This document shows, in pieces, positions 44,839-48,078 of a DNA stretch of 58,765 nt. How positions within the stretch are numbered: position 1 is the first letter of the stretch; every line of letters starts with the position of its first letter. The stretch covers positions 1 through 58,765 of the forward strand of contig NZ_FNBC01000013.1 of the NCBI RefSeq assembly GCF_900102145.1. Direction: 5' to 3'. The translations under genes and the position numbers were made by a program. The notes beneath the pieces were generated by a model. The model worked only from the letters and a program-made list of their open reading frames with translations, did not search any database and was not told where the DNA came from. This DNA comes from Thermus arciformis (lineage in GTDB: Bacteria > Deinococcota > Deinococci > Deinococcales > Thermaceae).

Positions 44839-44916
44839 GTTGCAAGAGCTTGAGCCCCGTAAGGGGATTGCGACTCCATTAGATTGGGTGCGGCCTGAGG
44901 CGGAGCCAGGTCGCTT

Positions 44917-45256
44917 GTTGCAAGAGCTTGAGCCCCGTAAGGGGATTGCGACTCAAACTCCGGGTCTGCCCCAAGCCTGCGAACCAACATGGTTGCAAGA
45001 GCTTGAGCCCCGTAAGGGGATTGCGACTCGGGATAGACAATCTCCCCCTCAACGACTTCTATATCGTGTTGCAAGAGCTTGAGCCCCGTAAGGGGATTGC
45101 GACCACCCTGGACCTGGTGCGCGCCCCCGAGCCCGTCTCCCTCTAGTTGCAAGAGCTTGAGCCCCGTAAGGGGATTGCGACTCAAACTCCGGGTCTGCCC
45201 CAAGCCTGCGAACCAACATGGTTGCAAGAGCTTGAGCCCCGTAAGGGGATTGATAC
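44917..45256 (+). repeat. Duplicated spacer unit in array 1
   Basis: The 39-base spacer at 44953-44991 (starting TCAAACTCCGGGTCTG) is repeated exactly at 45182-45220. With the flanking repeats, the identical block exceeds 100 bases. This suggests recombination between repeats rather than independent acquisition. Confidence 0.95.
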
Positions 45257-45267
45257 TGTCTTGCCTG

Positions 45268-45786
45268 TCAAGCCACCCCTTGGGCTGGCTGACCGGCGTA
45301 GTACTCCCTGAGCCGCCCCATCATCCGCCTGAGGAGCTTGTGGGCCACGGCCAAGAGCGCCTGCTTTTTTGTCTTCCCTCGGGAAAGCAAACGGTGGTAG
45401 AAGGCCCGCATCTCTGGGTCATGCCGCACCGCCACCAAAGCCCCCATGTAGAGCTTCCGCCGCAAAAGGGGAGGCCCCTTCCTGGAAAGCCGACCCCTCT
45501 CCACGCTCTTCCCCGACTCCTCCCGCTCGGGGATGAGCCCCGCGTAGGAGGCCGCCGCCTTCGCCCGGCCCCAAAGCTCTGGCGGCAGGAGGGCCAGCAC
45601 CGCCGCCGCCACCTGGGGCCCCACCCCGGGCAGGGCCATCAGGACTTCCGCCTCGGGGAGGGCGGCGAGGAGGGCTTGACGGCCTTCGGGGGTGTTGGGG
45701 AAGCGGAGGCGGGTGGGTTTGGGGGAGTTGGAGACCAGGGCCAGGTCCAGGTGGGGTTTGCTGACGTCAATACCGGCGAAGGTCAT
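45268..45786 (-). pseudogene. IS110-family transposase, internal deletion
   Basis: A 172-residue open frame where a full IS110 recombinase has about 310-420. The N-terminus MTFAGIDVSKPHLDLALVSN is the start of the DEDD (RuvC-like) domain; at about residue 50 the chain jumps (LPEAEVLMALPGVGPQVAAA) to the C-terminal Transposase_20 domain (YAGLIPEREESGKSVERGRL, GKTKKQALLAVAHKLL). The lost part includes the remaining acidic catalytic residues of the DEDD domain. The C-terminal Ser region remains. The frame is kept, so a protein may still be made, but it should be inactive. The longer frame to 45864 starts upstream of the family N-terminus and is not used. Confidence 0.85.
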
Positions 45787-45978
45787 GGGCTCTCTCCTTT
45801 TTGGTAAGCTGAGGGAGGTGGCCACCCGACCCCGTGGGCCTTCCATGTGGATGCGGTCTTGCACGACCGGGATACTGTGCGGCGGGGAGGCCGGGGCGGG
45901 TGGCTACCCATCAATCCCGCGGGCGTGGGTGCCCGGCAACCAGGGCGGTAGGGCCTCCCTCAGGGGGCAAGATACATG
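45787..45978 (-). ncRNA. Candidate IS110 bridge RNA region
   Basis: Non-coding end upstream of the transposase, read on the minus strand. A stem CTACC/GGTAG (around 45948-45952 and 45903-45907) encloses a loop whose 3' side carries GGGATTG (complement of 45912-45918), equal to the repeat bases left of the junction (45246-45252). Its 5' side carries GGTTGC (complement of 45936-45941), able to pair with GCGACC across the right junction with one G-U. Further 3', GATACTGT (45871-45878 on plus) equals the element's left end (45252-45259), and CATGT (45844-45848) matches the right end ACATG. These fit target- and donor-guide loops of bridge RNAs. Identification is inference from matches and layout. 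Confidence 0.55.
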
Positions 45979-46170
45979 CGACCCCGGTAGCCGCCCATGC
46001 CGGGCAGGGCCTAGGTTTAGGGTTGCAAGAGCTTGAGCCCCGTAAGGGGATTGCGACGGCGCGTCCGAGGAGAGGCGGATGAGGTCCCTTAGGTGGAAGT
46101 TGCAAGAGGTTGAGCCCCGTAAGGAGATTGCCTCGGGCGGGGGCTTGTATCTTTTCCCTAGGAGGCGTCC

Positions 46171-48078
46171 ATGCAGGCCCCGGTGTACCTGTGCCTTCTG
46201 GGCAACGACCCGGCCCCCGCCTACCTCGGCCTGAAGCTGGTGGAGCGGAAGGCGGGGAGGGTGGCGAAGGCCGTCTTTTACTCCTTCCCGGAGTGGAACG
46301 AGGAGTACAGGAAAAAGCGCCAGGCCCTTTTCCGCCTCCTTTCCGAAAAGGGCGTCCCCCACGAGGAGAGGCCCCTGGAAGAGGGGCTGGGAGAGGCGGA
46401 GGCCCGGGAGGTCTGGGTGAACCTCACGGGAGGGGCCAAGCTCTGGGCGGTCAGATTCTTCGGGCGCTGGCGGCGGCCCGGCGCCCGGGTCTTCCTCGTG
46501 GAGGGCCACCGCGTCCTCGAGGCGCCCAGGGCCCTTTTCCTCTGGCCCCGGGAGGAGGAGCTTTCCCTAGAGGGGGAAGCCCTCACCCTGGAGGAGTACG
46601 CCAAGCTCTACCTGGAGCCCCTGGGGGAAGCCTGGGAGCGGGTTCCCCCGCCCGGGGCCTTCCCCCCTAGAGCCCAGGCGGCCCGCCTTCCCAGCCGAGA
46701 GGGCGGGGTGTTCGTGGTCCACCGGGGCCTTCCCTACTGGGTGCGGCCCCACCTGGGGGACGAGGCCAAGGACATGTCCCGGAAGGCTCTTTCCGCCTTC
46801 TCCGGTGAGGCCAAGCGTCTTGGGGGCCAGCTCTGCCTGCCCGTGGTGCCCTACCACAGGGCGCACCTCCGCTCCCGCCACCCTAGGGAGCGGGAGAAGG
46901 TCCTCGCCCGCTGGAAAGCCTGGGCCAGGGAGTACGGGGTGTTCCTGGTGGACCCGGGCAGGCCTTTGGAGGAGGTGATGGCCTCCCAAACCAAAGGGAA
47001 GGCCTCCAAGAAGGCCTTGCCCCTTCCCCAGGAGGGGCCCCTTCTCCTGGCCCTGGTTTCCGAGCAGGCCGTTCCCCTCTACGCGGCCCACCTCCACGCC
47101 CGGCCCCGGGAGGTCTACCTCCTCACCACCCCCGAGATGGAAAGCCGCCTCCGCTGGGCGGAGGCCTTCTTCCGGGGCAAGGGGGTGCGGGTGCATAGGA
47201 GCTTCGTCCCCGGGCCCTGGGCCCTGAAGGAGGTGCGGGACCTCCTGGCCCCCGTGGTGAGGGAGGCCCTGAGCAAGGGCTTCCCCATGCACGCCAACCT
47301 GAACGGCGGGACCACGGCCATGGCCTTGGGCCTCTACCTGGCCCTGGAGGAGGGGGCCCAGGCCCACTACCTGGACGGGGATCGCCTCTTCCTTCTGGAC
47401 GGAGGGGAGGCTGAGGTGCCCTGGGAGGAGGGGGCCCCGGAGGACCTTCTCGCCCTGAGGGGGTACCGCCTCGAGGAGAACCACCCCGGGGCCCGGCCCA
47501 ACCCCGGGCTCCTCGCCCTGGCCGAGGAGATCCTGGAGCGATGGGACGAGGTGCAGGCCTCCTGGGAGGCCTCGCCCTTGGTGGGGAGGTTCTTCGGCCT
47601 CTGGAGGAAGCGCTTCGGCCAGGCCTTTCCCCCGGAACGCCTTTCCGGGCTCAAGGGGCTTCCCCTGGAGTACGCGGTCTACAGCCACCTGAACGCCCAC
47701 CTGGCCCCAAGAGGAGGCCGGGCCCGCATGGGCGGGCACCTGGTGCCCCTGGGGGGCAACGAGGCCCTGGCCCCCCAGTCCACGGAGGTGGACGGGGTCT
47801 TCTTCTACCGGGGCGCCCTCTGGCTCGTGGAGTGCAAGCCTAGGGACGAGGGCCTACGGGAGCGGGCCCTCCTCATGGGCGAGCTGGTGCGCTCCGTGGG
47901 TGGGGTGGGGGCCAGGGGGCTCATGGTGGCCCGGCGTTGGCGGGAAGCCCCGCCTCCGGCGAGCCCCAACCTGGTCTACATGGCCTTAGAGGGAGGCGAA
48001 GGCGTCCCCGGGGTCTACCGCTTCCCCCAGGATCTGGGCGAGGTCCTCTCACGGGATCCGGCGCCGCGGAGGGGCTAG
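46171..48078 (+). CDS. can1: Can1, cOA-activated CRISPR ancillary nuclease
   Basis: A 635-residue protein with the architecture and length of T. thermophilus Can1 (TTHB144, from memory). Two CARF domains sit in one chain: the first with VYLCLLGNDPAPAYLGLKLV and VWVNLTGGAKLWAVRF, the second with LLLALVSEQAVPLYAAHLHA and HANLNGGTTAMALGLYLAL. The C-terminal PD-(D/E)xK nuclease has STEVDGVFFYRGALWLVECK, D541, E554 and K556. Cyclic tetra-adenylate switches it on to nick supercoiled DNA. AGGAGG precedes the ATG; a TATCTT box lies at 46148. It follows array 1 and overlaps the convergent HEPN-like gene by 30 bases. Confidence 0.93.
   Translation: MQAPVYLCLLGNDPAPAYLGLKLVERKAGRVAKAVFYSFPEWNEEYRKKRQALFRLLSEKGVPHEERPLEEGLGEAEAREVWVNLTGGAKLWAVRFFGRWRRPGARVFLVEGHRVLEAPRALFLWPREEELSLEGEALTLEEYAKLYLEPLGEAWERVPPPGAFPPRAQAARLPSREGGVFVVHRGLPYWVRPHLGDEAKDMSRKALSAFSGEAKRLGGQLCLPVVPYHRAHLRSRHPREREKVLARWKAWAREYGVFLVDPGRPLEEVMASQTKGKASKKALPLPQEGPLLLALVSEQAVPLYAAHLHARPREVYLLTTPEMESRLRWAEAFFRGKGVRVHRSFVPGPWALKEVRDLLAPVVREALSKGFPMHANLNGGTTAMALGLYLALEEGAQAHYLDGDRLFLLDGGEAEVPWEEGAPEDLLALRGYRLEENHPGARPNPGLLALAEEILERWDEVQASWEASPLVGRFFGLWRKRFGQAFPPERLSGLKGLPLEYAVYSHLNAHLAPRGGRARMGGHLVPLGGNEALAPQSTEVDGVFFYRGALWLVECKPRDEGLRERALLMGELVRSVGGVGARGLMVARRWREAPPPASPNLVYMALEGGEGVPGVYRFPQDLGEVLSRDPAPRRG

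Follow-up and report, generated by a model that had tools for sequence, protein, structure and literature searches.

Why does a CRISPR (clustered regularly interspaced short palindromic repeats) array of Thermus arciformis carry a piece of a mobile element inside one of its repeats, at a position so exact that its removal leaves the repeat whole? The window analyzed here is a stretch of 58,765 nucleotides (contig NZ_FNBC01000013.1 of assembly GCF_900102145.1), and the element that splits the sixth repeat of its array is a deletion derivative of the insertion sequence (IS) IS1000, a member of the IS110 family. Judging from the sequences, it is very likely, with a probability that we put at roughly 0.93, that a bridge RNA encoded by IS1000 itself directs the element to CRISPR repeats. 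The array and the insertion comprise the following features:

44839–46134, plus strand: CRISPR array of eight repeats, the last degenerate and the sixth interrupted by the insertion (from the repeat listing and repeat families)
45221–45252, plus strand: 5' part of the split repeat, 32 nucleotides, ending in the core TG (45251–45252)
45253–45978, minus strand: IS1000 deletion derivative of 726 bp, IS110 family, with the second core TG at 45977–45978
45268–45786, minus strand: transposase remnant, the start of the DEDD domain joined in frame to Transposase_20 (PF02371)
45979–45982, plus strand: 3' part of the split repeat, CGAC, four nucleotides

The array consists of regular, identical repeats and unique spacers, is accompanied by adjacent cas-type open reading frames (ORFs; as read from the ORF list) and contains a match to the Rfam entry CRISPR-DR36 at 46022–46057. 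Its interrupted repeat, GTTGCAAGAGCTTGAGCCCCGTAAGGGGATTGCGAC (36 bp), is opened after GGGGATTG and before CGAC, the core being TG/CA, and excision of 45253–45978 restores it exactly. The identity of the element follows from its high DNA identity to IS1000A and IS1000B and from its having the same ends; compared with IS1000A of T. thermophilus HB8 (1,160 bp, with a transposase of 317 residues), the left and right ends are about 95 and 90% identical, respectively. The full-length IS1000A transposase contains both the DEDD (PF01548) and Transposase_20 (PF02371) domains above the cut-offs and matches the enzymes of IS621 and ISCro4, the structures of which have been solved, with the catalytic D-E-D-D residues and the serine aligning with those of ISCro4. 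IS1000 also displays the other hallmarks of IS110 elements, namely a long non-coding left end with a predicted structured RNA upstream of the gene, and a dinucleotide core at both junctions, TG/CA in the window, with no long target duplication.

The insertion sites of related copies point in the same direction. In a sample of IS1000-type ends taken from genomes of Thermus and from 17 plasmid records, 28 of the 44 distinct right-end junctions are located in CRISPR repeats, 26 of them at exactly the same base, one in reverse orientation and one in a degenerate repeat; not every one of these junctions counts as independent, since turnover of the arrays gives rise to new neighbours. By our own count, about 12 complete distinct insertions from these genomes and plasmids have both ends in a repeat at the same nucleotide. 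Joining of the flanks recreates a repeat in HB8 (two sites), HB27, HC11, HB5018 (two sites), SNM1-7, T. brockianus SNM4-1 and genome G021 (two sites). The repeat families hit include GTTGCAAGAGCTTGAGCCCCGTAAGGGGATTGCGAC, GTTGCAAGGGATTGAGCCCCGTAAGGGGATTGCGAC, GTTGCACGAGATGCTTCCCCGTCAGGGGATTGCGAC and GTTGCAAACCTCGTTAGCCTCGTAGAGGATTGAAAC, the part common to them being the guided part. In SNM1-7, a right end is located at the other end of a repeat in the opposite orientation (GTTG-CA-AACCT), which is also compatible with the guide. For comparison, none of 19 other IS110-family hits within Deinococcota, examined as controls, had an array in its flanks, and the distant IS110 copies of G050 and G071 showed neither a match to the RNA model described below nor a CRISPR flank. 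One protein was used to scan species genomes and gave Thermus-type hits only, and a plasmid-wide protein search found no relatives outside Thermus at E 1e-45.

The element's non-coding end contains the following predicted RNA and promoter features:

45795–45966, minus strand: predicted bridge RNA region (fold, consensus and covariance model; its 201.9 bits arise by construction, the window sequence being among the ten model members)
45947–45951, minus strand: CTACC, 5' arm of the target-loop stem
45936–45945, minus strand: left target guide CCCTGGTTGC, with GGTTGC at 45936–45941 opposite GGTCGC, one G-U wobble
45912–45918, minus strand: right target guide GGGATTG, 7/7 with CAATCCC of the repeat
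45904–45908, minus strand: GGTAG, 3' arm of the target-loop stem
45870–45878, minus strand: left donor guide ACAGTATCC, matching the right end of the element and the core at 8/9 positions
45844–45848, minus strand: right donor guide ACATG, pairing with CATGT at the left end (by eye)
45969–45974, minus strand: TATCTT at the left end, the −10 box after circularization
45266–45271, minus strand: TTGACA near the right end, the −35 box after circularization

The approximately 170 nucleotides between the left end and the gene are predicted to fold (z −2.32) into an outer stem, a target loop and a donor part, with CUACC/GGUAG closing the target loop around a hairpin of CGGGC/GCCCG. In this model, the guides follow the order left target, right target, left donor, right donor, and the fold resembles that of an IS621-type bridge RNA. 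A covariance model built from ten IS1000-type copies recovers the same RNA in the order-level relatives G036 and G040; Rfam offered no matching bridge-RNA family. The target guides are the most variable stretch of this otherwise nearly invariant RNA. A preliminary description of the locus, made from the letters alone, had anticipated much of this: the clean excision and the TG at both junctions, the correspondence of GGGATTG to one side of the junction and of GGTTGC, with one wobble and thus only partial left pairing, to the other, the matches of ACAGTATC (45871–45878, minus strand) and ACATG to the element's two ends, and the stem around the target guides all hold. What it called an IS110 remnant can now be specified as an in-frame deletion derivative of IS1000, and the folding that it envisaged gives an IS621-type layout.

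The target guides vary with the insertion site. The CRISPR class combines GGTTGC (left) and GGGATTG (right) opposite GGTCG-CA-ATCCC. The AA2-2 copy has CCGGTC and GGGGCTG at the site CCGGTC-CA-GCTCC, and joining its flanks gives a sequence 100% identical to the ISTth4 that many plasmids carry uninterrupted; this empty site, with the predicted core present, confirms the core for AA2-2. The copies of G005 carry CTATGTTGC and GACTTTG at CTATGTTG-CA-AAGC, within a dispersed repeat of about 90 bp that has at least 40 matches in that genome. In GE1, the left flank of which may be rearranged, the guide CTTGGCTT faces the site CTTGGCTT. The G040 copy has the guide TGGGGTG and is inserted ahead of CACCCCA, and the G036 copy has AGGGGTG and is inserted ahead of CACCCCT. 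Copies outside CRISPR arrays thus carry correspondingly different guides, as expected of a bridge RNA, and do not refute it. With a pairing score that permits a shift of the left guide by up to two positions, for sites and background alike, the true assignment of the six guide classes to their sites ranks first among the 720 possible permutations (86 versus a mean of 60, standard deviation 6.7); between 0 and 71 of 250,268 background positions match single classes. For the guide pair of the window, the match is better than chance, just 3 of the 250,268 positions scoring as high, and in the smaller set with a CA core there are three equally good sites, one of which is another repeat of the window array. 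A score with a fixed register was dropped, having failed for the AA2-2 class and being weak for GE1. Together with the full-length relatives lying in CRISPR repeats at the identical nucleotide, these matches support the claim of the preliminary description that a bridge-RNA-like guide is directed to the repeat.

The donor side of the predicted RNA shows a similar dependence. The left donor guide matches 8 of 9 positions in all copies and follows the right end of the element through three states, ACAGTAT, ACCGTAT and ACGGTAT. In the window, HB8 and T. brockianus copies, joining of the two ends in a circle would place TTGACA 17 nucleotides from TATCTT, as read from the sequence; such a promoter-like arrangement at the junction has been reported for IS110 circles (PMC11208160).

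We envisage the following scenario. The left end of IS1000 would encode a bridge RNA whose target is the 3' part of the CRISPR repeats of Thermus (GGGGATTG followed by CGAC), that is, the region of the 5' tag of the CRISPR RNA (crRNA). An intact element would excise as a circle, the junction of which would form a promoter, and the expressed RNA would assemble with the DEDD recombinase into a ribonucleoprotein holding the circle junction in the donor loop and a CRISPR repeat in the target loop. Strand exchange at the shared CA/TG dinucleotide would then insert IS1000 into the repeat in a fixed orientation, antisense to the array, presumably silencing the split repeat and its spacer.

Several points weigh against this scenario. 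As far as the RNA and the recombination are concerned, it is deduced from sequence. In the CRISPR class, the left guide pairs at only about 6 of 9 positions, and the register of the left guide is shifted by one base between classes. The match of the right donor guide, five nucleotides long, is the weakest of the four guides. The stems hardly vary, so that their base pairs show only weak covariation. Furthermore, the copies are not all independent, given that arrays and plasmids recombine, and no allelic empty CRISPR array turned up in searches with joined flanks, made for two sites of HB8 and one of HC11. In relation to the left guide, we note that the spacers at the CRISPR sites start with C, the base that the next left-guide position would read, in 11 of 15 cases compared to 35% of 240 repeat-spacer starts (p 0.003, a post hoc value for sites that are not fully independent).

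These points have to be set against what other explanations could offer. The recombinase itself might recognize the repeats, by sequence or as a hairpin, the guide matches being incidental; the repeats are indeed partly palindromic and hold most of the copies, but the AA2-2 transposase, 91% identical, resides in ISTth4 with matching guides, the variability of the RNA is concentrated in the guides and all six classes match their own sites, which makes such recognition very improbable. Unspecific insertion, with copies persisting mainly in arrays as harmless sites, would agree with arrays being plausible neutral ground and with the abundance of remnants; the use of the same repeat base in different repeat families, as predicted by the guide, renders it less probable still. 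The least probable explanation, in our assessment, is that arrays recruited pieces of IS1000. This was the interpretation of a 2019 survey, which found that IS1000 positions 1165–1196 equal CRISPR repeats (PMC6352166), a 32-bp identity between annotated ends and repeats. However, the identical 32 bp lie outside the element, copies at non-CRISPR sites are devoid of them and have their own target there, and the ends of the AA2-2 and G005 copies are intact without them. Because 4 nucleotides of repeat, 1,160 of element and 32 of repeat add up to 1,196, the annotated length is that of the element plus a split repeat, which explains the published identity without recruitment.

A different question is what guided insertion is for. 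It could have been selected for disabling or reshuffling CRISPR immunity, as counter-defence beyond the use of a plentiful landing site. The crRNA tag is split by the insertion, the repeat that is hit lies beside a leader-like flank in HC11 and T. brockianus, and in SNM1-7 two inverted copies seem to bound an inverted piece of array. Against this, comparison of spacers with IS1000 gives chance-level matches of 12–13 nucleotides only, the other guide classes target repeats unrelated to immunity, and safe multi-copy sites suffice as an explanation, so that we regard selection of this kind as improbable. A role of IS1000 in disabling immunity is possible, although not supported in this analysis. 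The gain for guided IS1000 is probably a plentiful and harmless landing site, similar to REP (repetitive extragenic palindromic) sequences for IS621; the benefit of a safe harbour for the element, suggested in the preliminary description, is what we infer as well.

The window copy itself is a dead remnant, and its interest lies in the system that it reveals. The mid-gene part was lost in frame between two GCCCTCCTCGCC repeats, so that PF02371, the first D and the serine are retained and the E, D and D of the catalytic tetrad are gone; we take these to be the catalytic residues from the alignment with ISCro4 and general knowledge of IS110 enzymes. Consequently, any movement of this copy would require a full-length recombinase supplied in trans. 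The same derivative is present with 99% identity in the close relative G026, where the flanks shared with the window comprise the next spacer and repeat, 77 nucleotides, on one side and, on the other, only the 32 nucleotides of the split repeat. Sharing this limited suggests that the insertion is probably old and that the array around it has turned over since. Within the window array, one repeat-spacer unit occurs twice (44914–45028 and 45143–45257; spacer TCAAACTCCGGG...), and directly past the array, at 46171–48078, lies an ORF of 635 amino acids that, by eye, resembles CARF-type CRISPR ancillary nucleases (Can1-like).

Other copies show further rearrangements. On the T. thermophilus SNM1-7 plasmid (L089:757-3790), the flanks of the two inverted copies are apparently exchanged, as if the array piece between them had been inverted, and a single copy on T. 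parvatiensis pTP143 (L122) bridges two different CRISPR repeat families, which suggests recombination between copies in different arrays. A right-end fragment (from approximately position 785) adjoins vapC in many T. thermophilus plasmids (L041, L081, L082, L083 and L084), mostly beside CRISPR repeats with differing neighbouring spacers. At G000:C68:28783-29262 (L071), a second left end at the contig end follows 28 nucleotides of another left end that starts in the CRISPR-like GTCGCA; this may be either a full-length copy that the assembly has broken up or an insertion nested in another. The dispersed repeat of G005 (e.g., L131-L160) ends in GTGCGGGCACTTAG and holds several IS1000-type copies. 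Contig CAKZTQ010000058.1 (L110), labelled 'uncultured archaeon', has IS1000 flanks identical to a T. thermophilus SG0.5 plasmid and is probably misbinned.

Among characterized systems, IS1000 most resembles the bridge-RNA elements of the IS621/IS110 type (PMC11208160, PMC11208158), with which it shares the DEDD transposase, the long left end with an RNA, the order of the two guide loops, a CA/CT-type dinucleotide core, the circle-junction promoter and a multi-copy genomic repeat as natural target (REP for IS621). It differs in that its core is CA, its main natural targets are CRISPR repeats of several families and its RNA is a prediction. The seekRNA elements of the IS1111/IS110 group (PMC11187229) likewise combine DEDD transposases with RNA-guided target choice, but no CRISPR repeat or Thermus target is named in that paper; in IS1111 types, the RNA is located at the right end (PMC11208160). 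IS6110 in the direct-repeat locus of Mycobacterium tuberculosis (PMC7708916) is also inserted in CRISPR repeats and mediates array rearrangement, but is not of the IS110 type, inserts at differing positions within repeats or spacers and has additional target bases at its ends. IS1000A and IS1000B (PMC6352166) are the same element as the window copy, at the same repeat position, the differences being the internal deletion and the published boundaries. On HB8 pTT27 (L034:4001-5162), the published 1,196-bp boundary seems to take in the whole split 36-bp repeat, the element proper being 1,160 bp, and the database entry of IS1000 probably needs correction.

A search of the open-access literature, subscription papers and preprints being outside its scope, found no paper that names CRISPR repeats as IS110 targets; from the sequences, they appear to form a new class of natural targets of IS110 elements that are guided by RNA. 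We consider it unlikely, if worth stating, that IS1000 is a natural RNA-guided homing element for arrays, the insertions of which switch off or reorganize immune memory by splitting the crRNA tag, separating spacers from the leader and inverting array pieces between copies. If this were true, the immune locus would be under attack from another RNA-guided system and would be more than neutral ground. The guided insertion proposed here explains the published puzzle of IS1000 and CRISPR repeats in Thermus and reveals a natural series of related recombinases with different guides for different targets, which should be useful for understanding how bridge RNAs are reprogrammed in evolution, and points to a recombinase of extreme thermophiles for which no fewer than six natural guide-target pairs exist. 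CRISPR loci of the Sulfolobales have been described in a review as almost closed to transposition (PMC4390879); IS1000 is a clear exception to this statement, in another phylum.
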